Positions 3,807 to 20,301 of a DNA stretch of 21,953 nt are shown one piece after another (within the stretch, counting starts at the first letter, position 1; each line of letters starts with the position of its first letter). This stretch comes from Eubacterium sp. TM05-53. Lineage in GTDB: Bacteria; Bacillota_I; Bacilli_A; Erysipelotrichales; Erysipelotrichaceae. Where the stretch lies: positions 1-21,953 of the forward strand of contig NZ_QSPK01000038.1 in assembly GCF_003436425.1 (NCBI RefSeq), given 5' to 3'. The notes beneath the pieces are model-generated. The model did not search any database and was not told where the DNA came from. It saw only the letters and a list, made by a program, of their open reading frames with translations. The position numbers were made by a program, and so were the translations under genes.

Positions 3807-3837
3807 TTAGTTGGATACAAAAGAAAAAGGTGAAATT

Positions 3838-4605
3838 ATGTCAAAGAAAAAAGAAGAAAGACAACTTCAGATTCGTCAAATTCTAGAAGAAAAAGAGAAA
3901 ATAAAAGTTACGGAACTCGCTAAATTACTTTCTGTCACTCCCGAAACACTACGCAAAGATTTAAGTGAACTACAAGAAAGAAAAATAGTAATCAAAGAAC
4001 ATGGCTATGCCAAGATTCAAAGTTCTTCTGTCGAGACGTTTGTCGAATTAAAAGCACAAAAAAACAAGGAAATGAAAAAAGTTGTGGCTCTAGAAGCGTT
4101 CAGCCGAATTGAAAATGGTATGATTGTATATTTAGATTCAGGAAGTACAATTCTAACTGCCATAAGTGCTCTAAAGAATAAGAACGATATCACCATTGTC
4201 ACCAATTCTATTCTTGTAGCTTATGAATGTGCCAACATGAATTTAAATATCATTATGGCAGGCGGTTTATTATTTAATATAGGAAAAAGGACCTATGGAC
4301 ATTTCGCAACTGAAATCATTGACCATTTAAATATAGATCTAGCTATTATGGGAACCGATGCCTTCACTGAAAAGAGTCATGGATTTACAACTATTTCTGC
4401 CGATGAATTAGGTTTTAAAAGACATGTCATGAATCAATCCGCGCAAAAGATCATGATAAGTGATGCGAGTAAAGTTAATAATAAGGCCGATATTGCTCCC
4501 TATGCCTTTTGTAAGTTTAATGAATTTGATGAATTCATCACAAACCATTTAACACCCGAACAATATGATGTTGTAAAAACAATTAAGAAAGTAACACAGG
4601 TGTAG
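3838..4605 (+). CDS. DeoR/GlpR family transcription regulator, 255 aa
   Basis: This is a DNA-binding repressor of the type that senses a phosphorylated sugar or related metabolite. The N-terminal winged helix-turn-helix is clear: ERQLQIRQILEEKEKIKVTE, then LLSVTPETLRKDLSELQERK, then KEHGYA. It is followed by the DeoR C-terminal sensor domain with GMIVYLDSGSTILTAISAL and ITIVTNSILVAYECANMNLN. The start ATG 3838 follows AAAGGTGA with 5 bases of spacing and gives the same MSKKK-ERQ start as the paralog behind it. A TTG at 3811 would add nine residues but lies on top of the leader. The stop is 3 bases before the next gene, so both are cotranscribed. No sugar operon lies beside them, so the target is unknown. 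Confidence 0.9.
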   Translation: MSKKKEERQLQIRQILEEKEKIKVTELAKLLSVTPETLRKDLSELQERKIVIKEHGYAKIQSSSVETFVELKAQKNKEMKKVVALEAFSRIENGMIVYLDSGSTILTAISALKNKNDITIVTNSILVAYECANMNLNIIMAGGLLFNIGKRTYGHFATEIIDHLNIDLAIMGTDAFTEKSHGFTTISADELGFKRHVMNQSAQKIMISDASKVNNKADIAPYAFCKFNEFDEFITNHLTPEQYDVVKTIKKVTQV

Positions 4606-4608
4606 CTT

Positions 4609-5367
4609 ATGTCCAAAAAGAAAGATGAAAGACAATTCAAGATTCGTCAACTTCTACAGGAACACCACAAAATCAAAATATCCGATTTAGCTACTTATTT
4701 CAACACTTCAAGTGAAACTATTCGTAAAGATATTATTGATCTCGAAGATTCCAATATTATAAAAAAAGAACATGGCTATGCCATCCTTTTAGAAGAACCA
4801 GATGAAATGCCCATTTCATTAAGAAATCAAGAATATATCGAAGAAAAGAAACAAATTATGAAGAAAGCTTGTACCTTTATTAAAGAAGGCATGATTGTAT
4901 ATTTAGATGCCGGAAGTACATGTCAAGCAGGCATTCCTTTTCTTCAATCCATCCAAAATATTACAATTGTGACTAACTCCATTTTTATAGCCTACAAATG
5001 CGCAAGACTTAATATGCACGTTATACTCATTGGTGGAAACATTTCCAACAATGCCTATCGCTCTTATGGAAACCTCGCCAGTGAAACTATAGATTATATT
5101 CATATTGATGTTGCGATTTTAGGAACCAAGGGATTTAAAGACAACGATGGATTTACCACTTATGAAAATGAATATGGATTAAAGCGACACATTCTTCAAC
5201 AAAGTGAAAAAATCATTGTGGTAACAGACCATAGTAAGTTCAATATTCAGCCTGAATGCACGTATTGTAAATTTAAAGAAGTAGATGTATTTATTTCAAA
5301 CACATTAACTAAAGAAGAAAAAGCACAAATCCAAGTAATCCCAGAAATAATAGAGGCAGAAGTTTAA
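4609..5367 (+). CDS. DeoR/GlpR family transcription regulator, 252 aa, tandem paralog
   Basis: It has the same architecture as the preceding gene: winged HTH (ERQFKIRQLLQEHHKIKISD, then FNTSSETIRKDIIDLED, then KKEHGYA) and a sensor domain with GMIVYLDAGSTCQAGIPFL and ITIVTNSIFIAYKCARLNMH. The two proteins are closely similar in the first 60 residues, especially the recognition-helix region (SETIRKDI versus PETLRKDL), but differ more in the sensor half. They may therefore read similar DNA sites in response to different ligands, or form heteromers. AGGTG inside the end of the upstream gene, 7 bases before the ATG, serves as ribosome site. The gene ends at a hairpin shared with the convergent CDF gene. 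Confidence 0.9.
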   Translation: MSKKKDERQFKIRQLLQEHHKIKISDLATYFNTSSETIRKDIIDLEDSNIIKKEHGYAILLEEPDEMPISLRNQEYIEEKKQIMKKACTFIKEGMIVYLDAGSTCQAGIPFLQSIQNITIVTNSIFIAYKCARLNMHVILIGGNISNNAYRSYGNLASETIDYIHIDVAILGTKGFKDNDGFTTYENEYGLKRHILQQSEKIIVVTDHSKFNIQPECTYCKFKEVDVFISNTLTKEEKAQIQVIPEIIEAEV

Positions 5368-7823: not shown

Positions 7824-8030
7824 CAATTCTAATTTTGCTTTTTTAAGAATTTCATTAAAGTTTTCAGATGAATCTGTAAGAACCTTACGAACATCAATCT
7901 TAATTCCCATAGATACGGCCTTTGTACATACTACCTTTCCTTGAGAGTGTGCCATTGAACCTAAGTTCAATTCTTTGTTGGCTGGTTTATGCATCTTGTA
8001 CTTTTTCGGATTAAAAGAACGAAAACCCAA
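7812..8030 (-). pseudogene. Decayed second copy of the mannose-type PTS EIIB 3' end
   Basis: The protein reads KELNLGSMAHSQGKVVCTKA, then VSMGIKIDVRKVLTDSSENF, then EILKKAKLEL, nearly the same as the last part of the EIIAB gene at 10244. By eye, 7825-7910 matches 10251-10336 at about 77 of 86 bases, and 7911-7977 continues the match at 10379-10445. The 42 bases between (10337-10378, 14 codons) are missing. In the intact gene both edges of that segment carry CCCAT, so the loss is an in-frame deletion between short direct repeats. Beyond 7978 only a scrap (tgcatcttgt) still resembles the parent, and the IIA domain, phospho-histidine and most of IIB are gone. It lies directly behind the intact operon, on the same strand. 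Confidence 0.88.
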
Positions 8031-8052
8031 TCAACATAATGCTGACTGGGTT
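8013..8052 (-). terminator. Terminator of the mannose-family PTS operon
   Basis: On the minus strand, AACCCAGTCA (8052-8043) pairs with TGATTGGGTT (8033-8024), with one G-T wobble and a 9-base loop, followed by TTCGTTCTTTT. It lies 8 bases after the DUF956 stop codon. Confidence 0.75.
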
Positions 8053-8060
8053 AATAATAC

Positions 8061-8447
8061 TTAATTGTTTGAATGTAGTAATTTATTTGGAATATACATT
8101 AAACCGCGTTTAAACACATCCCAAAAACTTAATGATCGAAGCATTCGATCTGCAGGTACATATTCTCTTATAGCACGAAGTGTTTTTTTGTTGTCTTTTG
8201 TAGAGAAAGTAAAATATGTTTTCTCATTTATGAAAATCACAAATCTAGAAATACTCTTATTAAATAAGACACTCGCTTCTACACGATCAATTGTATCCCA
8301 AGGAATTTGAATACAATCTTCAACATTTCTTTCATTGTAGAATTCAAATGCTTTATTTCCAACCATGACATTCCCATTGGAACTCAATCCCGCAAAAGAT
8401 GTTGCCTTGATTGTTAAATCAACTTTTGAATTTAATGATTGTGCCAT
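8061..8447 (-). CDS. manO: DUF956 / ManO protein of mannose-family PTS operons, 128 aa
   Basis: DUF956 proteins are encoded almost only at the end of mannose/glucose-type PTS operons (manLMNO in lactobacilli). Their role is not firmly known; a part in control or in association with the EII complex is assumed. The sequence shows a short N-terminal strand region (SKVDLTIKATSF), the block GLSSNGNVMVGNKAFEFYNE, a central IQIPWDTIDRVEASVLFNK, and a C-terminal amphipathic segment (FWDVFKRGLMYIPNKLL). There is no signal peptide. An AAGGAGG site lies 5 bases before ATG 8447, and the gap from EIID is 18 bases, so it is the last gene of the operon. The position and length fit the family well. Confidence 0.85.
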   Translation of the reverse strand: MAQSLNSKVDLTIKATSFAGLSSNGNVMVGNKAFEFYNERNVEDCIQIPWDTIDRVEASVLFNKSISRFVIFINEKTYFTFSTKDNKKTLRAIREYVPADRMLRSLSFWDVFKRGLMYIPNKLLHSNN

Positions 8448-8465: not shown

Positions 8466-9383
8466 TTACATAATTCCAATTACACGACCAACGATACCAA
8501 CTACGAATAATGCGATGATAATTGTGATTGGAGAAACTTTCTTCTTCAATAATTTACAGCATAATAATGTTAATAATAAAGCTGCAAGACCTGGAATCAA
8601 TGAATCTAAGTTTTGTTGTAAAGTTGTAACTTTGATTTGGTTCAAACCAGTAGCTCCTAATGAAGAATATTGTTCTAATGCACTCTTAATACCGTCTGCA
8701 TTTCCTTGGATTTGTGACCAGTCAATGTATGCACCTTCAGATTGAGTAACACTTGAAACAACTGGTGTAAATGAAATACTTACCCAACGTTGAACCAATG
8801 CACCAATGATAAACATACCTAAGATACTTGCACCTTGAGTAATTTTACCAAGAAGTCCACCAGACATGTCTTCAGCAATTTTAGTACCTACATTGTAACC
8901 AAATTCTTGTGTATACCACATGAATGCTAAACGAATTACGTTCCATAATACGAAGAATAAGATTGGTCCTAAGATATTTCCACTTAATGCCAAAGAAGCA
9001 CCTAAAGCACCTAAAATTGGACGCATAGTAAACCAGAATACTGGGTCACCAACACCAGCTAAAGGACCCATCATACCTACTTTAACACCTTGGATTGCAG
9101 TATCATCTACATTTTCACCATTTGCTTTTTCTTCTTCCAAAGCAAGAGTAACACCCATTACTGGACTTGATACATAAGGGTGAGTGTTATAGAACTCCAT
9201 GTGACGTTTTAAAGCCGCAATTTGATCTTCCTTGTTAGGATATAATTTCTTGATTGCAGGAATGATTGAATAGCACCATCCACCATTTTGCATACGTTCA
9301 TAGTTCCAAGAACCCTGAAGGAATTGATGACGCCACCAAACTTTTTTACGATCTTGTTTAGTTAATGTAATTTTTTCAGCCAT
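8466..9383 (-). CDS. manN: PTS mannose/glucose-family EIID membrane component, 305 aa
   Basis: With EIIC it forms the sugar channel of mannose-type PTS permeases. It has the long cytosolic N-terminal part typical of EIID (LTKQDRKKVWWRHQFLQGSW, then NYERMQNGGWCYSIIPAIKK), the conserved GVKVGMMGPLAGVGDPVFWF, and C-terminal hydrophobic segments ending in ALLLTLLCCKLLKKKVSPITI. The first ATG of the frame (9389) lies only 3 bases after GGAGG, so the second ATG (9383, MAEKITL) with 9 bases of spacing is preferred. The spacing of 23 bases to EIIC and 18 to the DUF956 gene shows one operon. The length is normal and the frame is intact. Confidence 0.92.
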   Translation of the reverse strand: MAEKITLTKQDRKKVWWRHQFLQGSWNYERMQNGGWCYSIIPAIKKLYPNKEDQIAALKRHMEFYNTHPYVSSPVMGVTLALEEEKANGENVDDTAIQGVKVGMMGPLAGVGDPVFWFTMRPILGALGASLALSGNILGPILFFVLWNVIRLAFMWYTQEFGYNVGTKIAEDMSGGLLGKITQGASILGMFIIGALVQRWVSISFTPVVSSVTQSEGAYIDWSQIQGNADGIKSALEQYSSLGATGLNQIKVTTLQQNLDSLIPGLAALLLTLLCCKLLKKKVSPITIIIALFVVGIVGRVIGIM

Positions 9384-9406
9384 TTTCATTTACCTCCTTC
9401 AAAATC

Positions 9407-10225
9407 CTAGTAGTCATTCAAGATGTCGCCTAATGGATCACCAGAACCAGTATTTGATCCTCCACCACTATTTTTAGCAGCATCTTTCAAACCTAAATAA
9501 ACGATTGCGATAACAACACCAATTACACCTAAAGCAATTAATGTAAATTCACTTACACAAGCAAATACGAAACCTAAAGCGAAGAATGGCCAAGTTTCTT
9601 TTGTAGCCATCATGTTGATAACCATTGCATAACCAACAGCAGCAACCATTCCTCCACCAACTGTCATACCACCAGATAACCAAGCAGGCATTGCATTTAA
9701 TACGCTTGTTACAGCTGAACTAGGTACGAAACATAAAGCAGCAGCAGGAATCGCAATACGAATACCTTGTAAGCAAATACCAACAATTTGCCAACGTTCG
9801 ATTGCACCAAAATCACCTTTTTCAGCAGCAGCATCCATGAAGTGAACTACTGGAATTGCAAGTGTACGGCAAAGCATAGTTAAGAATAAACCAGCAACTG
9901 ATAATGGAATAGCTACGGCAATGGCTGTAGAAATAGCAGCTGTAGTATCTGTTGTTCCACCATTTAAACCTAAAACCATGATAATTGCAGAAGCAACTGA
10001 AGCTAGTGCAGCATCTGGTGCAACCGCTGCACCAATGTTTGCCCAACCTAAAGCCATCAACTGCAAAGAACCACCTAACATAACACCTTCTTTTAAGTGA
10101 CCAGTAACCAAACCAATTAATGTACATGCTACTAATGGTTGGTGGAATTCATATTGGTCAAGAACCCCTTCCATACCGGCTAAGAAGGCTACAATTATAA
10201 CTAAAATAACGCTAATCGCTGACAT
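9407..10225 (-). CDS. manM: PTS mannose/glucose-family EIIC membrane component, 272 aa
   Basis: This is the integral membrane sugar-translocating subunit. Family signatures are EFHQPLVACTLIGLVTGH and EGVMLGGSLQLMALGWANIG near the start, then several hydrophobic segments to about residue 250. Unusually polar for this protein is the C-terminal tail KNSGGGSNTGSGDPLGDILN, a Gly/Ser-rich cytosolic end. Similar tails occur in other Firmicute EIICs. The ribosome site is GAGGGAGA before ATG 10225. It lies between EIIAB (18 bases) and EIID (23 bases). In several Firmicutes the EIIC/EIID pair is also the docking site of class IIa bacteriocins; whether that holds here is unknown. Confidence 0.92.
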   Translation of the reverse strand: MSAISVILVIIVAFLAGMEGVLDQYEFHQPLVACTLIGLVTGHLKEGVMLGGSLQLMALGWANIGAAVAPDAALASVASAIIMVLGLNGGTTDTTAAISTAIAVAIPLSVAGLFLTMLCRTLAIPVVHFMDAAAEKGDFGAIERWQIVGICLQGIRIAIPAAALCFVPSSAVTSVLNAMPAWLSGGMTVGGGMVAAVGYAMVINMMATKETWPFFALGFVFACVSEFTLIALGVIGVVIAIVYLGLKDAAKNSGGGSNTGSGDPLGDILNDY

Positions 10226-10243: not shown

Positions 10244-11224
10244 TTACTTTAATTCTGTTTTTGCTTTTTTAAGAATTTCATTGAAGTTTTCAGGTGAATC
10301 TGTTGGCACCTTACGAACATCGATTTTAATTCCCATTGCTAATAACTCATCAAATGTTTTTACATCATCACTTCCCATAGCTACGGCCTTTGTACATACA
10401 ACCTTTCCTTGAGAGTGTGCCATTGAACCTAAGTTCAATTCTTTGATATCAACTCCACCTTTGATAGCTCTTAATGCATCTTGTGGTGTTTCAAACAACA
10501 ACATTGCTTTTGTAGCTCCAAAACGAGGATCCTTTGCGACCTGGATCATCTTGTCGATTGGAACAACATTCGCTTTTACTCCTGGAGGAGCTGCCTGTTC
10601 GATCATGCTCTTTCTTAATTTGTCATGAGCTACATTATCACTTACAACAATGATACGGTTTGGTCCAACAGTCTTTGTCCAAGTTGTTGCTACCTGACCA
10701 TGAAGTAAACGTGTATCAATACGTGCTAATCCGTATTTGATATGTCCATCTCCAAGTACTGTTCCTTCTGGAATAGCACCTTGTGGAGCTGCACTTACTT
10801 CTGCTTTCTTTTCTTCTTTTGGTTCTAATTCTTTTGGATTGATTTGAACACCCTCTTGTGCAGTCTGCATAACGTGCGCTGCAATTTCGTGTGCTTTCTC
10901 CATTGAGAATCTAGAAGCATACGTTTCAATTAACATAGGCAAGTTCAATCCTGTGACAATTGCCCATTTGTCTTCGTGACCATCTAACAAAGCACTTGCC
11001 TGATTGAATGGAGTTCCTCCCCATAGGTCAACTAAGAACAATACTTCTTCTTGGTTTTCAAAAGAAGCGATCGCATCTTCCATCTTCTTTCGAATGTCTT
11101 CAGGTCCTTCACTAGGCATCAAAGTACAAGGCTTTACATTGGCTTGTTCACCAAAAATCATAGCTCCTGACTGGAAGATACCATTCGCAAATTCACCATG
11201 ACTTGCAAGAATAATTCCTACCAT
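10244..11224 (-). CDS. manL: PTS mannose/glucose-family EIIAB, 326 aa
   Basis: This is the cytosolic phosphocarrier that moves phosphate from HPr to the incoming hexose. The EIIA domain (residues 1-125) has phospho-His H9 in IILASHGEFA and the DLWGGTPFNQA loop. A charged and Ala/Pro-rich linker (about 130-157, ELEPKEEKKAEVSAAP) joins it to the EIIB domain (160-326), which has phospho-His H175 in LARIDTRLLHGQVATTW. It is the first gene of the manLMN-manO operon, with AAGGAT before ATG 11224. The leader carries a cre-overlapped promoter, a RAT and a terminator, so expression should need both CcpA relief and antitermination. The last third has a decayed copy at 7812-8030. The transported sugar (mannose, glucose or related) cannot be fixed from sequence alone. 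Confidence 0.93.
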   Translation of the reverse strand: MVGIILASHGEFANGIFQSGAMIFGEQANVKPCTLMPSEGPEDIRKKMEDAIASFENQEEVLFLVDLWGGTPFNQASALLDGHEDKWAIVTGLNLPMLIETYASRFSMEKAHEIAAHVMQTAQEGVQINPKELEPKEEKKAEVSAAPQGAIPEGTVLGDGHIKYGLARIDTRLLHGQVATTWTKTVGPNRIIVVSDNVAHDKLRKSMIEQAAPPGVKANVVPIDKMIQVAKDPRFGATKAMLLFETPQDALRAIKGGVDIKELNLGSMAHSQGKVVCTKAVAMGSDDVKTFDELLAMGIKIDVRKVPTDSPENFNEILKKAKTELK

Positions 11225-11257
11225 ATATTTTCATCCTTTCTTAGAAATTCAATACGC

Positions 11258-11345
11258 AAAAAAAGACAGACATATACATTTAAACTGAAGATATACAATA
11301 AACCAATAAAGATTATATCTTCAATCAAAATAGTAAATGCCTGCC
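11258..11345 (-). terminator. Long leader terminator of the mannose-family PTS operon
   Basis: On the minus strand, GGCAGGCATTTAC (11345-11333) pairs with GTATATGTCTGTC (11277-11265), with two G-U wobbles and one mismatch, directly followed by seven Ts (11264-11258). The stem goes on inward with AT-rich partial pairing and then a perfect 9-bp arm pair, 11322-11314 with 11295-11287. It lies wholly in the leader, ending about 33 bases before the EIIAB start, so it must be opened for the operon to be expressed. It would also stop transcripts coming from ptsG and the antiterminator gene. Confidence 0.75.
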
Positions 11346-11359
11346 TAACCAGTTACACG
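11337..11359 (-). promoter_or_regulatory. RAT (ribonucleic antiterminator), GlcT type
   Basis: Minus-strand sequence is CGTGTAACTG, six bases (GTTAGG), then CAGGCAT. This has the core of BglG-family RAT sites (TGTTACTG, loop, CAGGCA) and is closest to the GlcT-type version, in which CGTGTTACTG is followed after 6-7 bases by CAGGCAT. The 3' half (GGCAGGCAT) is also the 5' arm of the terminator stem, so RAT and terminator hairpins exclude each other, as required for antitermination. The downstream flank lacks the usual AAACC of LicT/SacY sites. Confidence 0.75.
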
Positions 11360-11387
11360 CTATTGAATATTCACTTTTTACACAAGA

Positions 11388-11416
11388 AATGTACCACCAT
11401 CTGAAAGCGTTGTCAA
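11388..11416 (-). promoter_or_regulatory. Promoter of the mannose-family PTS operon with overlapping cre
   Basis: On the minus strand, TTGACA (11416-11411), 17 bases and TACATT (11393-11388) form a near-consensus sigma-A promoter. TGAAAGCGTTGTCA (plus strand 11402-11415) matches the CcpA cre core TGNAANCGNWNNCA at every fixed position and covers the -35 and half of the spacer, so CcpA bound here should block RNA polymerase. No sigma-54 type -24/-12 element is seen. Confidence 0.85.
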
Positions 11417-11424
11417 CAAGAAAA

Positions 11425-12264
11425 TCAAGAAGTTATCGTACTCGACAAAATTCTCTCCAAGTGCAAAGCTAAATAACCCAACTCTGAATCCGGCAATTCT
11501 TTATGCAGCACACGACTCAATTGTTCACATAAAACACGAGCCTGTTCATAAGCAAACGGAAACTTTTCCTTTGTGAACTCTGTAATATCCATTTGTAATT
11601 CCTCATCATTATTGAGTCTCAACAACAAAAATTTAATATGATTCATTAAACGAATATAGGATAGTGAATTCGCATCAATACGAATATTTAAATCTGCCTG
11701 TAATTTTTTGAAAAACTCACGAATCACACGCATAACTTCCATCGACTGCCCTACTTTATTCACCGATATAGCCGAGTGAATATGTAAGGTGATAAACGCA
11801 ATTTCATCTGCATTTATTTCTTCATGCGTATATTTTTCAATAACATCCTTTGCCTTTAATGCCACTGAATACTCATCTGGAAACATAAGTTGAATATCCA
11901 TATTAAATGGATTGGATGGGAAATCCTTCTCTTTAATTCTTTTTATCGCAAAATAAATATGATCCGCTAAAGATAATAAAATATCGTGTTCTACTTTACC
12001 AAATTTCTCTTTTGTTAAAGTAATAATTTCAGATGAAATTTCAATATACATTGGATCAATGTAATCAAAAATATTATTCGACTTCTGTTTCGCCTGATAT
12101 GACTTTTGCATCTTATACTGCTTTGCATTGCGAGGAACATCCACTTGTTCCCCTTGCTTTTTACCAAAGCCAATTCCTTTAGACATCACAATTATTTCTT
12201 CATTTTCTTTTAAAACCAAGATTGTATTATGATTCAAAACCTTTAAAATTTCATACATATCCAT
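11425..12264 (-). CDS. glcT: BglG-family transcription antiterminator, GlcT-like, 279 aa
   Basis: This RNA-binding protein prevents leader termination when its cognate PTS sugar is present. The RNA-binding CAT domain (residues 1-58) contains LKVLNHNTILVLKENEEIIV and SKGIGFGKKQGEQVD; the FGKK form is that of GlcT, while LicT/SacY proteins have FQKK. PRD1 (about 65-170) has phosphorylatable H102 (LADHIYFAI) and H161 (ITLHIHSA). PRD2 (about 175-279) has H209 (RLMNHIKF) and H268 (LALHLERIL). All four PRD histidines are present. The start codon overlaps the ptsG stop (TAATG); a second ATG two codons in has better spacing to AAAGG. Cotranscription with the EIICBA fits control by that permease. The likely RNA target is the RAT in the next leader downstream. 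The gene name is by likeness of the RNA-binding domain. Confidence 0.88.
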   Translation of the reverse strand: MDMYEILKVLNHNTILVLKENEEIIVMSKGIGFGKKQGEQVDVPRNAKQYKMQKSYQAKQKSNNIFDYIDPMYIEISSEIITLTKEKFGKVEHDILLSLADHIYFAIKRIKEKDFPSNPFNMDIQLMFPDEYSVALKAKDVIEKYTHEEINADEIAFITLHIHSAISVNKVGQSMEVMRVIREFFKKLQADLNIRIDANSLSYIRLMNHIKFLLLRLNNDEELQMDITEFTKEKFPFAYEQARVLCEQLSRVLHKELPDSELGYLALHLERILSSTITS

Positions 12265-14354
12265 TATCCCTTTACCCTTAACATCATATCATGACATTGC
12301 ATTTTTCCATATTTTTTTTCTATTTCTGCACCATCTTTTATTTTCGTAAATACAACTATAATATTCTCATCTAACGCATTGTCTTTGATATACTTTAAAT
12401 CTGCATTCCACAAAACGTCTCCAGCATTAACTTTCTGGTTTGGTTTTACCAACAATTCAAAACCCTTGCCATTTAATTTCGCCGAATCCGTACCAAAATG
12501 AATCAAAATCTGTGTATTATCATCGATTGTAATACCAATCGCATGTTTTGTAGGATAAATCATTGAAATAACACCATCACACGGCGCTACAACAACACCA
12601 TCAATTGGACGAATCATAATACCATCACCCATCAATTTATGCGCAAACATAGAATCGGATGCTTCCTCTATAGGCATGACCTCACCATTTACAGGGCATT
12701 CAAGTTCCAACTGTGTTTTAGTTTCTAAAACAACTTCTTTCTGTTCAAAATCATAACTTTCCGGCACATTCAACATATACTCATCCAGTTTTGTCTTTAT
12801 ATTCGAAGCCTGAGGACCATAGATAATTTGAATCGCATTTGGCTGACACATAATAGCTGCAGCCCCTGATTTTTTTAACACTCCTTCATTTATTAAAGTA
12901 TCATCGTGAATTGTAGCCCTTAATCTTGTGATGCAACAATCTAAATCCGTAAAGTTACTTCGTCCACCTAAGCCTTGAACAATCATCTGGCTTCTAGGAT
13001 CAATCAATGATTTATCAAAACTAAAATCGTACTTTTTCTTATCAAACACCTTAATACTTTCATCGCGTCCAGGCGTTTTTAAATCATATTTCACAATTAA
13101 AAATTTAAATACCCCATAATAAATAAAGAAATATACTAGACCAAGTAAAACTATAACGATCCAATTTGTCTTCGCATTTCCCTGTAAAATTCCAAACAAT
13201 GTAAAATCAAGCAATCCGGCCGAAAAAGTAAATCCAATCGCAACCTGTAAAGCTTGTGCAACCACAAAACATGTGGCAGCCAAAAATACATGAACAACAT
13301 ATAATAATGGTGCCACAAACAAGAAAGAAAATTCAATCGGCTCTGTAATTCCTGTTAATGCACTCGTTAAAGCCGCTGATAGTAATAGGCTCGCTGTCTT
13401 TTTCTTAGCCTCTGGATTTGCACATTGATACATAGCTAAAGCCGCACCAGGCAAGCCAAAAATCATAAAAATAAATTCTCCAGAGAAAAATTTAGTTGCA
13501 TCCACACTAAAATGAGTCACACTTGGATCGGATAATTGCGCAAAGAAAATATTCTGCGCACCGGATATAATTGAACCATTTACCATTTGTACACCGCCTA
13601 ATGCACTCTGATAAAATGGCATATACCAAACATGATGCAAGCCAAAAGGAACTAAACTACGCTTAATAATTCCATAAATAAATGTACCAAAATAGCCAGA
13701 GTCAGATATAAATTGTCCCAAATTATAAACACCCTGCTGTAATGGTGGCCAAATAAAATACATAAGCACCCCTATAAATACATATGTAATAGCACAAATG
13801 ATTGGAACAAATCGTTCTCCTTCATAAAAAGAAATCACATTTGGTAATTGAATCTGGTAAAAATGATTATGCAAATAACTAACACCAAGTCCAACGACAA
13901 TTCCTCCAAACACACCCATTTCAAGTGATAACATTCCACATACCGAAGTAATAGATCCATCTAGAATATAATTTGAAACTACACCATTAACAATACTTCC
14001 ATCTAAACAAAGTAACGTATTGATTGTGGCATGCATCACAAAAAAGGCAATAATAGCTGCAAGAGCAGCGACTTCTTTTCTTCGCTTAGACATTCCTAAA
14101 GCTATAGAAACCGCAAAAATCAAGGGTAGATTATCAAATAAAACTTTGCCTACTTGTTTCAATAAAATTAAAACACTATATAAAAAGGTTCCTTGCCCTA
14201 ATACCGATTCTAAATGCAATGCAGCTATCGTTGTTTCATTGGTTAAAGAACTTCCTACACCCAAAAAAATACCTGCAACAGGAAGCACTGCGATAGGTAA
14301 CATAAAGGATTTTCCCATCCTTTGTAAAAAACTAAACACATGATGTTGTTTCAT
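12264..14354 (-). CDS. ptsG: PTS glucose-family EIICBA permease, 696 aa
   Basis: This membrane permease imports and phosphorylates glucose or a close relative such as glucosamine or N-acetylglucosamine. EIIC (residues 1-425) contains SFMLPIAVLPVAGIFLGVG, VPFGLHHVWYMPFYQSALGG and the substrate-site GITEPIEFSFLFVAP. EIIB (about 455-530) has phospho-Cys C474 in LDCCITRLR. EIIA (about 555-690) has H604 (KHAIGI) and phospho-His H619 in ILIHFGTDSAKLNGKGFELL. All three domains are complete. A very short AGAGG-containing leader precedes ATG 14354, and no RAT or hairpin is seen there, unlike the ptsG genes of bacilli that GlcT controls. It forms a two-gene operon with the antiterminator. The gene symbol gives the family; the substrate is not proven. 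Confidence 0.88.
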   Translation of the reverse strand: MKQHHVFSFLQRMGKSFMLPIAVLPVAGIFLGVGSSLTNETTIAALHLESVLGQGTFLYSVLILLKQVGKVLFDNLPLIFAVSIALGMSKRRKEVAALAAIIAFFVMHATINTLLCLDGSIVNGVVSNYILDGSITSVCGMLSLEMGVFGGIVVGLGVSYLHNHFYQIQLPNVISFYEGERFVPIICAITYVFIGVLMYFIWPPLQQGVYNLGQFISDSGYFGTFIYGIIKRSLVPFGLHHVWYMPFYQSALGGVQMVNGSIISGAQNIFFAQLSDPSVTHFSVDATKFFSGEFIFMIFGLPGAALAMYQCANPEAKKKTASLLLSAALTSALTGITEPIEFSFLFVAPLLYVVHVFLAATCFVVAQALQVAIGFTFSAGLLDFTLFGILQGNAKTNWIVIVLLGLVYFFIYYGVFKFLIVKYDLKTPGRDESIKVFDKKKYDFSFDKSLIDPRSQMIVQGLGGRSNFTDLDCCITRLRATIHDDTLINEGVLKKSGAAAIMCQPNAIQIIYGPQASNIKTKLDEYMLNVPESYDFEQKEVVLETKTQLELECPVNGEVMPIEEASDSMFAHKLMGDGIMIRPIDGVVVAPCDGVISMIYPTKHAIGITIDDNTQILIHFGTDSAKLNGKGFELLVKPNQKVNAGDVLWNADLKYIKDNALDENIIVVFTKIKDGAEIEKKYGKMQCHDMMLRVKG

Positions 14355-14429: not shown

Positions 14430-14465
14430 TTCATAAGAAAAAAAGTAGAAATCAGATTTCTACTT
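14430..14465 (-). terminator. Terminator after the alpha/beta-hydrolase pseudogene
   Basis: On the minus strand, AAGTAGAAAT (14465-14456) and ATTTCTACTT (14452-14443) form a perfect 10-bp stem with a 3-base loop, followed by a long T run. It insulates the ptsG promoter. Confidence 0.88.
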
Positions 14466-14467
14466 GA

Positions 14468-14860
14468 TTAAATATGTTCTTTGATAAAAGAAGAAATTGT
14501 TTCTTCTACTTTATCACGTGCTTCTATAGATGCGAAGTCATGTCCTCCATTTGAAACTTTATGAAACTTGGCATTTTGATACCCCTGAGCATAACGTATG
14601 CAAGTTTCTTCATCCACTTGATCATCATCATCTGCACGTATCAACATAACTGGACCATTATATCCTTTAGCTTCCGTAAAAGGATCTGGATGTTTTGTCA
14701 TTTCATTATTAAAAGATGCCTTAAATCATACACTCTCTATATCAATGTAATCTTGGCCCATTTATTTCATAGCCTCTGCCATTTGATCACGACTAAACCT
14801 CAGGCAAACACCTGGACATAATAATATCAAACCATGAGACTGAATTTTAGGCGCACATGA
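14468..14860 (-). pseudogene. Alpha/beta-hydrolase, 5' truncated with two in-frame stops
   Basis: The last 77 residues are the C-terminal end of a serine hydrolase. PVMLIRADDDDQVDEETC holds the triad Asp region and VSNGGHDFAS the triad His, followed by the closing helix. Upstream in the same frame, with no ATG needed, the sequence still reads hydrolase-like (KIQSHGLILLCPGVCLRF, then SRDQMAEAMK, stop, MGQDYIDIESV, stop, FKASFNNEMTK). The stops are TAA at 14764-14762 and TGA at 14728-14726. The part with the nucleophile Ser is absent: the homology ends near 14860, where a plus-strand AraC remnant begins. So it is a broken gene cut by a rearrangement and then mutated. The terminator behind it survives. 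Confidence 0.8.
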
Positions 14861-14998
14861 AATTACTTTACCAAGATTTTTAAGAAAGTAATGAACAAAA
14901 CACCTAGTGAATATTTCAAAATCATTAAAAATGAAGCTAGAAGTTCATAATATACTGATTCAAACCATTAGAATATCTAGTGAATTCAAAGAAAAAAA
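14861..14998 (+). pseudogene. Fragment of an AraC-type regulator 3' end
   Basis: 14861-14912 is identical to 20181-20232, the 3' end of the AraC gene, except at two positions (50 of 52). It encodes NYFTKIFKKVMNKTPSE, the last part of the second helix-turn-helix. The frame then drifts to a stop at 14948. A second scrap, agtgaattcaaagaa (14979-14993), repeats 20226-20240 of the same gene, so the 3' end is present in two overlapping pieces with 66 unrelated bases between. It lies on the plus strand, behind the terminator of the glucuronidase operon, and abuts the hydrolase pseudogene at 14860. It is a remnant with no function expected, but shows that a second AraC copy once stood on this side of the operon. 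Confidence 0.8.
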
Positions 14999-15090: not shown

Positions 15091-16479
15091 TTAGATTTCG
15101 CCACGACGCTTCTTAAGTTCTAATATATTCGCTTCGACACGATTTTTACTTAATGGATATAAGAACATCAATACCAATGCGATTCCAACAAATCCAATCG
15201 CAGGAATGATACAAGTCATATTAAAGATGCCATTAACTACTTCTGGATTAAATGCAGTGGCTGCAGTATATCCAATCACTGATAACAATGCACCAATCAT
15301 ACCACTTGATAAAGCTTGTCCAAGTTTACGTGCAAATGAGTATACTGAATAGATTGTTCCATCTTCACGAACACCGTTTTTAACTTCTGCATCATCAATT
15401 ACGTCAGTAATCATTGCCCAGATAACCATATTGAAGAATCCAACACCAATATTGGCTACCACATAGAATACAACATATGTATATGGATTCTCTGGTTTTA
15501 ATACCCAACAAATCAAATAAACAACAGCACCAAATAAACATGAACCAATAGCTAATTCTTTTTTACCATATTTTGCAGATAACTTTGTAGCTAATGGTGC
15601 ACAAACAACTAACATAACAAGACTACCAGCTAATGCAGCTACCGATTGAGCAGCTACATTACCATAGAAATTCGGGAACAAATACGCATTCATACCTTGC
15701 ATAGTAAGCATTACAAGTAGTAACAAGATTGCGGCTGCAATAATACCAATCAATGAACGGTTTGTAACTAAACTCTTCATCAAATCACCGAAGTTAAATT
15801 TTGTATTGTTTTGAGGAACTTCTACACGTTCAGTTGCTAACTTGAAGCACAACATATAACAAATCACAGCCATAACACTGAATACACCAGCAATAATTGT
15901 CATACGATTTCCAGATAATATAGTATTTCCATTGACTGTTTCATATGCGAACAATGGAGTACCTACACCAATTACTAAACCAGCTAATGTGGAACCGATT
16001 GACCTCCAAGTTGATAAACTTGCACGATCTTTTGCATCTGCTGAAATCGCAGAAGCCATTGAACCATAAGGAATATTGATTGAAGTATAGAAAATACTTC
16101 CCCATAAAATATAAGTTACAATCATCCAAACAACTTTGAATAAATACGGCATATTCGCAAATCCAGATTGGAATACCAAGAAACTAGAAATCGCAACAGG
16201 ACCGCACATACGTCGAAGCCATGGTTTAAACTTTCCGTCTTTTGTAGGCTTAGAACGGTCTACAATCTGGCCCATTGCAACATCCGTGAAGGCATCCACA
16301 AATCTTGCAGCCATCATTAACACACCAACAACGCCTGCATGAATACCCATAACGTCTGTATAGAATTTCAACATAAAGCTTGAAGACAAGATGAATGTAA
16401 AATCATTTCCAAAGTCTCCAAACATGTAACCGATTTTATCTTTGAACCCAAAAGGACGAACATTATTTTTTTCACTCAT
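15091..16479 (-). CDS. GPH-family sugar:cation symporter, probable glucuronide transporter, 462 aa
   Basis: This is a twelve-segment inner-membrane symporter of the glycoside-pentoside-hexuronide family (UidB/MelB/XynP type), importing beta-glucuronides or related glycosides with H+ or Na+. The N-terminal signature is FVDAFTDVAMGQIVDRSKPT after the KIGYMFGDFGNDF segment typical of the family. A central cytosolic loop follows after residue 215 (LATERVEVPQNNTKFN), and the conserved REDGTIYSVYSFARKLGQAL lies in the second half. The family-typical MITDVIDDAEVKNG is also present. It begins 12 bases after the GH2 stop codon with a GAGG ribosome site, so it is cotranscribed with the glucuronidase and should carry its substrate. 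The exact symbol is left open because the substrate rests on context. Confidence 0.9.
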   Translation of the reverse strand: MSEKNNVRPFGFKDKIGYMFGDFGNDFTFILSSSFMLKFYTDVMGIHAGVVGVLMMAARFVDAFTDVAMGQIVDRSKPTKDGKFKPWLRRMCGPVAISSFLVFQSGFANMPYLFKVVWMIVTYILWGSIFYTSINIPYGSMASAISADAKDRASLSTWRSIGSTLAGLVIGVGTPLFAYETVNGNTILSGNRMTIIAGVFSVMAVICYMLCFKLATERVEVPQNNTKFNFGDLMKSLVTNRSLIGIIAAAILLLLVMLTMQGMNAYLFPNFYGNVAAQSVAALAGSLVMLVVCAPLATKLSAKYGKKELAIGSCLFGAVVYLICWVLKPENPYTYVVFYVVANIGVGFFNMVIWAMITDVIDDAEVKNGVREDGTIYSVYSFARKLGQALSSGMIGALLSVIGYTAATAFNPEVVNGIFNMTCIIPAIGFVGIALVLMFLYPLSKNRVEANILELKKRRGEI

Positions 16480-16491
16480 ACTGCTTATCCT

Positions 16492-18753
16492 CTACTTCTT
16501 AATCTTGATCAATTGCGCATTTAAACTTTCAATAAATCCTTCTGGAACTAGACTACCAGCCATTTTTTGCATATTTTCCATATTCATACCCTTCATCATA
16601 TCCCACATACCTTCACCAGGTGCGATATTGAAGTTTGTCGCAAGTTTAACTGCCTTTTGAACAATCGCAAAGGCATCTTTATTATGAGAAATTTCTTCCA
16701 TCGTATCTTTGATACTGTACATTCCTTCAGGGAATTCCATTGGAGCTTTAAGATCCATATCTCCAACGGCTTCAAACCAGTTTTTAACACCTTCTGCACG
16801 CTCATTTACTTCAGGCAAGACATAAATTGAAGGTTCTTTTTCAACCTTTTCTAATGTAATGCTGTCTTTTACATCACCCGCAACAGCTAATACTGTATTG
16901 AAACCATCTTTTAATGCTACATTGAACACAAATACTTTATCTGCACTTAATTCTTGTACCAATTCATCATTTAGATATAATGCTACACTTGGCTGGTTTG
17001 AATACACACGAATTTGAGTTGTTTCTCCAGCTCTTTGTGCATAGCGACTACCACATACATGTACCATTGGTTCTGCATTCCAATATGCTTTATAAATGAA
17101 GTAGCTATCTTTCTTTGTCTTACGATCCATTGTGACTAGCCCCTTGTTGTTACGACCTTTAACGCCGCCCTCATCACGAGCTGCACATCCAAAATCAAAC
17201 ATATTCCATACATGGCTTGACCAGATCCAAGGACGATCATTCAATACTTTGGCCATGTGCTCATGGTACAATGCCTGATATTCTTCACTGTAGTCTTTGC
17301 AGGCTGGATTAGGTCCATGATAAGTGATAATACCTTCACAACCATATTCAGATAGACCTAGACATAAATCTGGATGTTTTTCATGGAACATATCCATCCA
17401 AGGACCATTGTCCTCCATTTTTCCGCCATACCATCCGAAATAGTGGTTGTAGCTGATCACATCTGTAATTTCATGCATTGGACTATCCACTGGAGTCATA
17501 CTTACATGTGCAATTGTAGTTAAACGAGATGGATCCAATTTTTTAGCCAACGCATTCAATTCTTTATGGTTTTCCACCAACTTTTCACTGATTCCACCAA
17601 TCAAGATTTCATTTGAGATTCCCCAGAAACAAATAGACGGGTGATTGTAGTTTTGGATAATCAATTCTTTCAACTGACTGATACAATTTTGATGTGCGTC
17701 TGGATTCTTATTGAATACACTGATAAATGGAATTTCAGCCCAGACGATGAAGCCTAATTCATCACATGCCTCATAGAAATCTTGACTGTGTTGATAGTGA
17801 GCCAAACGAATTGTATTTGCTCCTAGATCTTTAATGATTCTTGCATCTTCATAGTGATCTTCACGAGTCAACGCATTTCCTTTATACAATTGATCTTGGT
17901 GACGACTTACACCACGTAATGGTGTTTCTACACCGTTGATAATAAATCCTTTACTTGGATCACATGAGAAGCTACGAACACCTGTCTTCACTGTCACTTC
18001 ATCAAATGTTTCATTACGTCTTTGTAGTTTCGCTGTTACTGTATATAAGTATGGATTGTCGATATCCCAGTTTGTCGTATCTGAAACAAAGACAGATACT
18101 TTTGTAGAATCTGCAGGACGACAAGTTGAAGCCACTTCTTTTCCATCGGCATCTAAGATTGAATATAATACGGTAAAGTTTTCATCGGCATCCTTTACGA
18201 ATGATTCGATTTCAAAGTTTGCACCGCCATCACATGGATAAGGCATCACTTTAATTCCAGGACCGCCATAGTACTCTAAATCAAAGTGAGCTTCTGTTGT
18301 ACAAATGATGTTGACTCCACGATACAAACCTCCATAGAATGTAAAATCTGCACTTTGGGGATATACACTGTCTTTATACTCATTGCTGCAAGCAATCACT
18401 AATAAGTTTTCTTCATCTTCTTTGCACAAATCAGTAACATCGGCACGGAAGATTGAATATCCACCTTCATGATACGTAACCTTAGTACCATTCACATACA
18501 CTGTAGCTTGTTGGCCAGCAGCCAATACTTCTACGAATACTTTAGAACCACCAAACGCTTGCGTTGGAGTTTTAAAAGTTTTCGCATACCAGTAGTTTCC
18601 ACGATCATATGAACCATTTCCATCGTGTCCATCTACCGCATTCCAAGTATGAGGCAAATTCACTGTTTGCCAGTCTGTCGGCATAACATTAGGTAGCCCA
18701 ACGTCTTTTTGAATAAACAGCCAATTTTCATTTAAATTAATAATTTTTCGCAT
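16492..18753 (-). CDS. uidA: GH2 beta-glucuronidase, 753 aa, with extra C-terminal domains
   Basis: This retaining glycosidase, predicted cytosolic with no signal peptide, would free glucuronate from glucuronides. The order is a sugar-binding jelly roll (1-155), an immunoglobulin-like domain (about 165-260) and a TIM barrel (265-560). Acid/base is E382 (FWGISNEIL) and nucleophile E469 (LGLSEYGCEG). N535-x-K537 (RNNKGLV) matches the NxK motif that binds the glucuronate carboxylate. Because related GH2 galactosidases can have NDKGLV at the same place, the assignment leans on uxaC, the symporter and AraC nearby. Residues 560-640 look like a DUF4982-type beta domain, and 650-753 is an added helical tail not found in the 600-residue E. 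coli enzyme. The start ATG 18753 follows AAGGAG by 7 bases; a longer frame upstream has no ribosome site. Confidence 0.85.
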   Translation of the reverse strand: MRKIINLNENWLFIQKDVGLPNVMPTDWQTVNLPHTWNAVDGHDGNGSYDRGNYWYAKTFKTPTQAFGGSKVFVEVLAAGQQATVYVNGTKVTYHEGGYSIFRADVTDLCKEDEENLLVIACSNEYKDSVYPQSADFTFYGGLYRGVNIICTTEAHFDLEYYGGPGIKVMPYPCDGGANFEIESFVKDADENFTVLYSILDADGKEVASTCRPADSTKVSVFVSDTTNWDIDNPYLYTVTAKLQRRNETFDEVTVKTGVRSFSCDPSKGFIINGVETPLRGVSRHQDQLYKGNALTREDHYEDARIIKDLGANTIRLAHYQHSQDFYEACDELGFIVWAEIPFISVFNKNPDAHQNCISQLKELIIQNYNHPSICFWGISNEILIGGISEKLVENHKELNALAKKLDPSRLTTIAHVSMTPVDSPMHEITDVISYNHYFGWYGGKMEDNGPWMDMFHEKHPDLCLGLSEYGCEGIITYHGPNPACKDYSEEYQALYHEHMAKVLNDRPWIWSSHVWNMFDFGCAARDEGGVKGRNNKGLVTMDRKTKKDSYFIYKAYWNAEPMVHVCGSRYAQRAGETTQIRVYSNQPSVALYLNDELVQELSADKVFVFNVALKDGFNTVLAVAGDVKDSITLEKVEKEPSIYVLPEVNERAEGVKNWFEAVGDMDLKAPMEFPEGMYSIKDTMEEISHNKDAFAIVQKAVKLATNFNIAPGEGMWDMMKGMNMENMQKMAGSLVPEGFIESLNAQLIKIKK

Positions 18754-18806
18754 CTTTTTTCTCCTTTTTAATATTTTATTTACCAAACACAAATCTTTAT
18801 CTATAT

Positions 18807-18820
18807 TGTAATCGCTAACA
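18807..18820 (+). promoter_or_regulatory. cre (CcpA-type) site upstream of the glucuronidase gene
   Basis: TGTAATCGCTAACA, flanked by T on both sides, fits WTGNAANCGNWNNCAW at every position. It lies 54 bases before the glucuronidase start, where its promoter must be, so CcpA or another LacI-family repressor could block the operon when better sugars are present. Confidence 0.7.
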
Positions 18821-18825
18821 TTGCA

Positions 18826-18906
18826 TGATGGTAGTAATATATTATTGTTTTATAGTAATTTATTACTGTATCCCCTTACATTATCGAAAATTATTTCTTA
18901 CCATCA
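18826..18906. promoter_or_regulatory. Nested palindromes in the divergent uidA-araC region, candidate AraC operator
   Basis: Two related 14-bp palindromes, AGTAATATATTATT (18833-18846) and AGTAATTTATTACT (18854-18867), have centres 21 bp apart, two turns of the helix. They are bracketed by an 8-bp inverted repeat, tgatggta (18826-18833) and taccatca (18899-18906). They lie just upstream of the cre and so just behind the expected uidA promoter, where an AraC activator would bind. This is about the only structured sequence in the 278-base region apart from the cre and the araC promoter. Confidence 0.5.
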
Positions 18907-18969
18907 GCTTATTTAACTCGATTTAAGAAAAAAAGGCAACAGATTAATACCTTTATATATAGCACATTA

Positions 18970-18998
18970 TTGACTTAATCATAATATTATACGATAAT
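18970..18998 (+). promoter_or_regulatory. Promoter of the AraC regulator gene
   Basis: TTGACT (18970-18975), 17 bases and GATAAT (18993-18998), followed by AAAGGAG (19018-19024) before ATG 19032. It faces away from the glucuronidase operon. Confidence 0.65.
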
Positions 18999-19031
18999 AC
19001 AGTTAAATATTACTATTAAAGGAGAAATATT

Positions 19032-20252
19032 ATGGATTATGAGAGAGAATATGCATTTGTCATTAAATATTTGAATAAATTATCTATCAAAACAGCGCTT
19101 ATCCATATATATGAAAACGATACCCCTACATTTGATCTAGGTCTTAGAAAAATTATATATGGTACTGATGACTACCCTAAATTTTTTGAATTTTTAACAT
19201 CTGCAGGTAAATCTAATACAATCTATCAAATCAATGATAAGTATTTTTGTAAGTACTATGCGCTACGTCTTCCGAATAAACCTGGTACTTATTTGATGAT
19301 TGGTCCTTATTTGGATCAAGAGATCACCCAAGAATCTTTATTAAACCTAGCCGATCATTATAATTTTTCACCGCAAATATTTTCTCAACTAAAATACTTC
19401 TATGAAAAAGTTCCTATTATTAAAGATATCGATCATTTATTATTACTCATCATCACCCTAGGCGAATATTTATGGGGTAATATGAACAACTTTTCACTTG
19501 AAAAAGTCGATCCTCATTCCATTGAATGGGCACAGCCTGTTTCTAGAGAAAAAAAAGAAACAAATGATGATGCATTTCTAACAATGAAAGCTATGGAAGA
19601 ACGATACGCCAGAGAAAATGGACTTATACAGGCTGTCTCAAAAGGATTAATTCACGAAGCTGAACAATTTTCTTCCTCATCGATTTTTTTTGAAATGGAA
19701 AAAAGATTGAGCGATCCCATTCGCGATATTAAAAACTATACGATTATTTTAAATACGATATTAAGGAAAAGTGCCGAAAAAGGAAAAGTACATCCAATAC
19801 ATCTTGATGCACTATCGAGTCAATTTGCGAAAGAAATTGAGAATATCACCTCGGTAAAAAAAGGTATTGAACTTCAAAAAAATATGGTTGAAAAATATTG
19901 TCTATTGGTTAAAAAACACTCCATCAATCATTATTCTTTACCTATCCAAAAAGTCATCACATATATTGATACGGATTTAACTGCGGATTTAAGTTTAAGT
20001 GCTCTTTCAAACTTATTAAATTTAAGTCCAAACTATTTATCAGCCCTCTTTAAAAAAGAGGCAGGAACTACACTTACAAACTATGTAAACACAAAAAGAA
20101 TTGAACATGCAGTCTATCTACTGAGTTCAACAGATATGCAGATTCAAAACATTGCTCAATATTGTGGTATTCCTGACGTAAATTACTTTACTAAGATTTT
20201 TAAGAAAGTAATGAACAAAACACCGAGTGAATTCAAAGAAGATATTCGATAA
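19032..20252 (+). CDS. AraC-family transcription regulator of glucuronide genes, 406 aa
   Basis: This is a cytosolic DNA-binding activator. The C-terminal 102 residues (305-406) hold the two helix-turn-helix units, LSLSALSNLLNLSPNYLSAL for the first and IQNIAQYCGIPDVNYFTKIF for the second, with the family end KVMNKTPSEFKED. The N-terminal 300 residues are a sensor of unknown fold, not a cupin by eye. A middle segment (about 255-300, AKEIENITSVKKGIELQKNM) is similar to a block seen before the HTH in many Firmicute AraC proteins. It is divergent from the glucuronidase operon and convergent with uxaC, so it probably senses a glucuronide or glucuronate and activates both. A near-identical fragment of its 3' end lies at 14861-14998. 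The start has AAAGGAG 7 bases upstream. Confidence 0.9.
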   Translation: MDYEREYAFVIKYLNKLSIKTALIHIYENDTPTFDLGLRKIIYGTDDYPKFFEFLTSAGKSNTIYQINDKYFCKYYALRLPNKPGTYLMIGPYLDQEITQESLLNLADHYNFSPQIFSQLKYFYEKVPIIKDIDHLLLLIITLGEYLWGNMNNFSLEKVDPHSIEWAQPVSREKKETNDDAFLTMKAMEERYARENGLIQAVSKGLIHEAEQFSSSSIFFEMEKRLSDPIRDIKNYTIILNTILRKSAEKGKVHPIHLDALSSQFAKEIENITSVKKGIELQKNMVEKYCLLVKKHSINHYSLPIQKVITYIDTDLTADLSLSALSNLLNLSPNYLSALFKKEAGTTLTNYVNTKRIEHAVYLLSSTDMQIQNIAQYCGIPDVNYFTKIFKKVMNKTPSEFKEDIR

Positions 20253-20288
20253 AAAAAGCGTACTTCACACTACCAAGAAGTACGTTTT
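20251..20288. terminator. Bidirectional terminator between araC and uxaC
   Basis: cgtacttc (20259-20266) and gaagtacg (20277-20284) form a perfect 8-bp stem with a 10-base loop. Four Ts follow on the plus strand and seven As precede it, giving a T run on the minus strand, so it serves both convergent genes. Confidence 0.9.
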
Positions 20289-20301
20289 CTCTTACATATT
20301 A

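Follow-up and report, generated by a model that had tools for sequence, protein, structure and literature searches.

What controls the mannose-class PTS operon that follows a glucose-family permease gene and an antiterminator gene in the 21,953 nucleotides of DNA analyzed here from the Holdemanella-related gut bacterium Eubacterium sp. TM05-53 (the whole stretch, hereafter the window)? Considering the anatomy of its leader, the mutually exclusive folds of that leader, their conservation and covariation, and the co-occurrence of RAT and GlcT, all observed here, we regard it as very probable that the answer is an antitermination switch of the BglG/SacY type, formed by GlcT and RAT, which gates this operon. 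On the minus strand, the IICBA gene and the antiterminator gene precede the leader (11416-11225) and the IIAB, IIC, IID and DUF956 genes (11224-8061), whose domains bear out the mannose-family operon read from the letters in the earlier note: IIAB (manX/manL; 10244-11224) carries the Pfam domains EIIA-man and PTSIIB_sorb, IIC (9407-10225) carries EII-Sor and scores above the cut-off of NF011647, IID (8466-9389) carries EIID-AGA and scores above that of TIGR00828, and the manO-like protein (8061-8447) carries DUF956. A 13-pair stem-loop with a T-rich tail, likely the operon terminator, follows DUF956 on the same strand (8024-8052).

Elsewhere in the window, two DeoR-family regulator genes stand in tandem (3811-5367), and a likely glucuronide cluster (15091-21705) comprises a GPH symporter, a GH2 beta-glucuronidase-like enzyme, an AraC-family regulator and the glucuronate isomerase UxaC. 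Between ptsG and the upstream GPH symporter (14430-14900), reading by eye gives the impression of AraC-type and alpha/beta-hydrolase gene remnants, the latter a 77-aa frame without a Pfam match.

The gene directly before the leader (11425-12264, minus strand) encodes 279 aa with a CAT RNA-binding domain (CAT_RBD, 58.5 bits in Pfam) and two PRD stretches, PRD1 and PRD2. Its best NCBIfam match is GlcT (NF047357) and its best solved relative the PtsGHI operon antiterminator (PDB 3rio), in agreement with the GlcT-type gene that had been placed just upstream of the operon. Since its 218.5 bits fall below the equivalog cut-off of 320, although no family scores better, we call it GlcT-like rather than GlcT. 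Its nearest named relatives are the antiterminators of Holdemanella biformis and H. porci (96% and 95% identical). All five PRD histidines (102, 161, 163, 209 and 268) are present, including those for phosphorylation of both PRD1 and PRD2, and histidine occupies these columns in 33, 35, 33, 35 and 35 of 35 aligned proteins. The CAT-two-PRD order, these histidines and a RAT/terminator target together point to a BglG/SacY-family antiterminator. Eight columns of the CAT domain, considered as specificity residues for GTGTAACTG versus GTGTTACTG RATs, do differ but follow ancestry too closely, and were discarded.

The adjoining gene (12264-14354, minus strand) encodes a glucose-family permease of 696 aa in the order IIC-IIB-IIA (Pfam PTS_EIIC, PTS_EIIB and PTS_EIIA_1), whose best NCBIfam match, TIGR02002 glcB, reaches 512.9 bits, under the cut-off of 591.8; its scores lie below the cut-offs of all IIBC models listed. 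From its family and position, this permease is the likely sensor and modifier of the antiterminator. No RAT was found within 400 bases upstream of ptsG in the window or in nine other ptsG-glcT loci, that is in 10 of the 10 readable ones (15 loci were given, of which five do not reach the ptsG start and were left uncounted), so the switch apparently does not act on the sensor operon itself in the ptsG-glcT-RAT-man layout.

Within the leader, a GlcT-type RAT hairpin, AATAGCGTGTAACTGGTTAGGCAGGCATTTACTATT (11364-11329, minus strand), is recognized by pattern, by fold and by its presence before IIAB in relatives. Its elements, CGTGTAACTG (11359-11350), six bases and CAGGCAT (11343-11337), can be read directly, as they had been at the outset, and the core pattern GTGTNACTG-N4to8-CAGGCA has a single match in the window (11358-11338) and none in 100 shuffles. 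Folded alone, the RAT reaches -6.2 kcal/mol, with a lower stem AATAG:CTATT, an internal loop, a middle stem, a bulge and an apical CTG:CAG stem. Rfam returned no RAT family match: the three matches in the window, like the three on the loci of 11 relatives, all lie far below gathering scores.

The terminator stem (11345-11265, minus strand), indicated by fold and covariation, is built of outer arms at 11345-11333 and 11277-11265 with an A+T-rich hairpin nested between them, and is followed by a run of seven Ts (11264-11258). The segment 11381-11264 folds as this terminator at -31.5 kcal/mol (z -4.57; none of 200 shuffles did as well). The earlier note had described a 13-bp stem ending in seven Ts and sharing nine bases with the RAT; the T run stands, the stem proves to be 12 pairs in 13 with one U-U mismatch, and the overlap has to be revised, all 13 bases of the 5' arm (11345-11333) lying inside the RAT. 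RAT and terminator are therefore mutually exclusive, and folding the leader in both states, the check proposed with the original reading, yields both forms at the energies given above. With promoter, RAT, terminator and T run all in place, the leader appears to hold the complete antitermination switch first envisaged. A simple terminator scan does not list this terminator, presumably because it allows only loops of 3-8 bases.

Upstream of the RAT lies a promoter TTGACA-17-TACATT with TG before the second hexamer (11416-11388, minus strand; 10 of 12 consensus positions), whose -35 box starts nine bases beyond the glcT stop codon. Promoter-like sites are as frequent in the window as in shuffles (42 against 42.4), so the promoter call rests on position. 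An exact cre core, TGWNANCGNTNWCA (equivalently TGACAACGCTTTCA), overlaps the -35 hexamer (11402-11415) as a candidate CcpA site; the near-consensus promoter with a perfect cre core across it, as earlier described, is thus confirmed. Exact cre matches number two in the window for 0.13 expected, and the second cre-like match (18807-18820) lies in the likely glucuronide cluster. Among the RAT-bearing mannose leaders, an exact cre within 400 bases is present in 4 of 20 and missing in 16, and the H. biformis (G002) and H. porci (G001) genomes have theirs at nearly the same place as the window. Of the two stacked controls that had been suggested, CcpA is plausible as a second layer at the Holdemanella promoter, where an exact cre lies on it, but 16 of the 20 leaders are without one. 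A sigma-54-like site (TGGCA[CT]N5TTGC[AT], one mismatch allowed) was not found within 400 bases of the IIAB start of the window, and two other loci (L090 and L103) hold a one-mismatch match.

The earlier note had made the switch stand or fall with the RAT/terminator overlap in relatives, where this overlap is present and covaries. We compared 38 distinct RAT leaders (17 mannose, 12 ptsG and 9 glycosidase), drawn from 42, among which the G038 mannose leader recurring in L132 was dropped as a duplicate and none was left out for want of a terminator arm. Pairing between the RAT 3' half and the terminator arm averages -18.1 kcal/mol within a leader and -14.3 with swapped arms (0 of 20,000 permutations as good). 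This first comparison chose as arm the best-pairing T run for the RAT of the same leader; when swapped pairs were given an equal choice, the values were -18.1 and -14.4 kcal/mol (again 0 of 20,000), and within classes 0 (mannose), 4 (ptsG) and 23 (glycosidase) of 20,000 permutations did as well. A compensated change is seen in three leaders of g46 genomes (L100, L102 and L104), where a RAT with GTAGGCA goes with an arm containing GCCTAC. Covariation of the RAT lower stem is weak by itself, with 256 of 5,000 shuffles as good. The terminator arm also pairs with the CAG of the RAT apical stem in 15 of 17 mannose leaders (the exceptions being L096 and L042) and in none of the 12 ptsG or 9 glycosidase leaders; a longer RAT-terminator overlap has been speculated to raise termination, as an excerpt of one source has it (PMC12628678).

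A look for the same leader in related genomes had been proposed, and it occurs there. The strict GlcT-type RAT pattern finds 39 sites in 30 of the 315 genomes of the order (4 sites in the reversed control): 18 before IIAB, 11 before ptsG-like genes, 9 before probable secreted glycosidases and one (G041 C91) that runs off its contig. The gene after a RAT was taken as the longest reading frame starting within 500 bases, with some start codons wrong in consequence; the ptsG label of L075, L076, L079 and L080 was confirmed on checking, two of the nine glycosidases were assigned to types, one as a GH3 protein with FIVAR and the other as an MGH1/YgjK-like glucosidase, and the other seven, like the secretion signals, were judged by eye from translations. 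To these sites can be added a diverged RAT before IIAB in G054, outside the strict pattern, and a RAT before ptsG in G008, missed by the strict pattern and met by a looser one, which brings to 12 the relatives with a RAT-ptsG pair. The two Holdemanella genomes have one strict RAT each, adjoining glcT. Before IIAB, the strict core is kept in five genera while the rest of the leader drifts, and in a sample of the phylum a RAT was found in 9 of 392 genomes, all inside the order. Mannose IIAB itself (E <= 1e-60) occurs in 46 of the 315 genomes, 18 of which have a strict RAT before it; the other 28, the diverged G054 among them, imply that the order has other arrangements besides the RAT-man linkage.

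Two further features of these leaders can be recorded. GCGCGC occurs within 40 bases past the T run in 9 of 9 glycosidase leaders (L127, L128, L129, L130, L131, L132, L133, L134 and L040), 1 of 12 ptsG leaders (L043) and none of the 17 mannose leaders; in most cases it forms the loop of a short hairpin whose stem varies, L129 folding otherwise. Four RAT-less mannose operons (L106, L107, L113 and L119) have, by eye, a hairpin-like stretch with CTGACGAG shortly before IIAB, possibly a different leader control of the mannose operon; in G042, G043, G048 and G070, whose leaders have no RAT, the CTGACGAG motif looked ribozyme-like, an idea that was abandoned, as the loci of all four are without Rfam support.

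That the RAT works with the GlcT-like protein had at first been a matter of adjacency, and co-occurrence across genomes now supports the pairing. Close GlcT relatives (E <= 1e-45) are found in 48 of the 315 genomes, namely in 28 of 30 RAT genomes against 20 of 285 others (Fisher 7e-25, relatedness uncorrected), and among the genomes with IIAB, in 17 of 18 with a RAT against 5 of 28 without, in a Fisher test that likewise ignores relatedness. In G071, the one RAT-IIAB genome counted as GlcT-less, the contig end leaves only a C-terminus just before the leader, and this is antiterminator-like. Conversely, four genomes (G049, G051, G088 and G089) have a GlcT and no RAT found before IIAB. In nine distinct genomes the RAT-mannose leader immediately follows the antiterminator gene, which in two more stands at the end of the same operon; G038 and G054 have the order RAT-man-DUF956-ptsG-glcT, a layout that would be self-gated. 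Two tandem GlcT-like genes, 36-37% identical to the window protein, precede a RAT-mannose leader in G041 (L047).

Could this RAT nevertheless be bound by another BglG-family antiterminator of the genome rather than by its neighbor? Several f2 genomes do have more than one antiterminator match among the matches listed, PRD-only ones included, and the H. porci genome has among its listed matches a further full-length relative at 32% identity. We nonetheless hold this improbable, for the presence of the RAT follows close GlcT relatives and the antiterminator gene adjoins the RAT-mannose operon in the counts just given, whereas in H. biformis the sole other match among those listed is a weak PRD region in a 639-aa frame. 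The RAT form GTGTAACTG...CAGGCAT also differs from the bgl type, GGATTGTTACTG-N6or7-CAGGCGAGACC, as given in the excerpted text of PMC12628678.

Slightly more improbable still, in our estimate, is that the stem and T run only terminate the ptsG-glcT transcript, the operon being under its promoter and CcpA alone and the RAT being a relic. The nine bases between glcT and the -35 box and the exact cre over the promoter would suit such an arrangement, but the promoter lies upstream of the RAT, so RNA started there always runs into the terminator; five genera retain the RAT core ahead of IIAB, the terminator arm changes along with the RAT, and the exact cre is missing in most of the leaders, as counted above. 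We thus return to the GlcT/RAT switch as the reading to be developed.

Transferring the start site, binding, phosphorylation logic, inducing sugar and CcpA action from what is known of the family, we would picture its operation as follows. In general accounts of these antiterminators, and in portions of two sources (PMC6148471, PMC9981650), the cognate permease phosphorylates PRD1 and thereby inactivates the antiterminator when substrate is missing, while PRD2 phosphorylation by HPr is usually activating. Transcription would start near 11381, and transcripts of glcT may also extend into the leader. As long as the GlcT-like protein is inactive, the 3' half of the RAT would pair with the downstream arm and transcription would end at the T run. 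With substrate, the permease would stop phosphorylating PRD1, and the protein could dimerize and, through its CAT domain, bind and stabilize the RAT, so that the terminator could not form and IIAB-IIC-IID-DUF956 would be transcribed. In Holdemanella, CcpA at the cre over the -35 box would repress initiation. The inducer is likely whatever the IICBA permease takes up, which its family suggests to be glucose-like, in which case expression of a mannose-class transporter would be switched on by a sugar entering through a glucose-family permease.

How the linkage arose may have more than one answer. The Holdemanella proteins join the mannose-linked GlcTs of another family in the GlcT tree (support 85/63 only), and lie outside that family's RAT group in the IIAB tree (99/96), whose starred branches force at least four changes of RAT label. 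As some of these changes may be losses (G049 and the second G038 copy), the trees are compatible with an early gain followed by losses as well as with gain or transfer on several occasions. The two operon copies of G038 (L041 and L161) agree at 99.94% over 3,234 bases, and only one of the two has a RAT leader; their identity starts 14 bases before the IIAB start codon, and the IIAB of the RAT-less copy is identical in protein to that of the RAT-bearing one. This pair is a ready-made comparison of a leader with and without a RAT.

Mannose leaders show, in addition, a third helix, in which the bases immediately ahead of the RAT are paired with those that directly follow the T run. In the window, this clamp joins GAATATTCAATAGC (11359-11372) to GCGTATTGAATTTC (11244-11257, between the T run and the Shine-Dalgarno sequence), both on the minus strand and both identified by own-versus-swapped pairing and by fold. 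Over 15 distinct mannose leaders, reduced from 20, own pairing averages -8.6 and swapped pairing -5.8 kcal/mol (0 of 20,000 permutations); with one leader per genus (32 picks, six genera) the p values have a median of 0.0014 and a maximum of 0.0083, and with five genera, G054 being set aside, these become 0.008 and 0.042. L096 and L042 do not show the clamp, and L095 shows it weakly. It is absent from ptsG leaders (7,779 of 20,000 permutations as good) and is at best faint in glycosidase leaders (654 of 20,000, p 0.03, at a mean of only -4.2 kcal/mol). The minimum-energy fold of the read-through leader is terminator plus clamp at -39.9 kcal/mol, against -24.9 kcal/mol with the RAT pairs forced, a figure that excludes protein binding.

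Since its 3' arm is made after the T run, the clamp should not affect termination, and mRNA stabilization and GlcT release are the roles we would infer as candidates. We give about even chances to the clamp being a 5'-end stabilizer of the read-through mRNA without any part in switching: it can form only after read-through, the predicted start lies some nine bases from the first base of its 5' arm, and the Shine-Dalgarno sequence follows closely on its 3' arm. In several leaders (e.g. L108 and L109), however, it also covers the 5' stem of the RAT, which would be needless for a pure stabilizer. It is conceivable, if rather unlikely, that the clamp is a built-in reset, in which bases past the T run would take the RAT 5' half while the terminator arm takes the 3' half, so that the RAT would be dismantled, GlcT set free to act again and the 5' end tied up in a long hairpin in front of the ribosome site. 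If so, GlcT made in small, unregulated amounts from the sensor-permease operon could serve a highly expressed transporter of another class, and a clamp resetting the RAT would add one step to the two-state model of antitermination.

In Bacillus subtilis, the ptsG RAT overlaps a terminator, as it does here. The GlcT/ptsG switch of that species resembles the present one in its CAT-PRD1-PRD2 protein (3rio), and here too a glucose-family IICBA gene lies beside the regulator. GlcT is the specific regulator of ptsG as described in an excerpt of PMC6148471, whereas the target here is a mannose-class PTS operon; moreover, no RAT was found before the permease gene in any readable ptsG-glcT-RAT-man locus, the terminator arm reaches deeper into the RAT, and the clamp helix is extra. 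In the B. subtilis SacX-SacY/sacB system, the permease is mainly a sensor for an antiterminator that also controls other genes (PMC6148471, in part), and sacXY is itself RAT-controlled (PMC9981650, in part). Relatives here come close to this in putting a RAT before probable secreted glycosidases; SacX-SacY is a sucrose system, however, and its extra target is not a PTS of another class. The N-acetylglucosamine permease NagE belongs to the glucose superfamily. In Enterococcus faecalis, NagY acts on nagE and hylA through a RAT that overlaps a terminator with compensatory changes, the second target being a polysaccharide lyase gene, and the portion of the source concerned describes no mannose-class target for this N-acetylglucosamine permease system (PMC9981650). 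A RAT/terminator overlap with compensatory changes is common to that system and to ours.

With the mpt operon (MptR/ManR/LevR, sigma-54), the window shares a mannose-class operon ending in a DUF956/manO-like gene, manO being presumably the same as DUF956. CcpA control of mannose-class operons is known. The E. faecalis mpt operon is controlled by sigma-54 and MptR and has a manO-like gene at its end, according to an excerpt of PMC2941500, which bears out for that species the sigma-54 control that the earlier note had set against the present case. There, a sigma-54 activator works at the promoter; the window is without such a site and has an RNA switch instead. Among the papers listed in searches of the open-licence PMC literature, we found no antiterminator-controlled mannose-class PTS. 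The type of switch is known, and what differs is its mannose-class target: an RNA antitermination switch appears to gate a mannose-class operon, with a glucose-family permease as its likely sensor.
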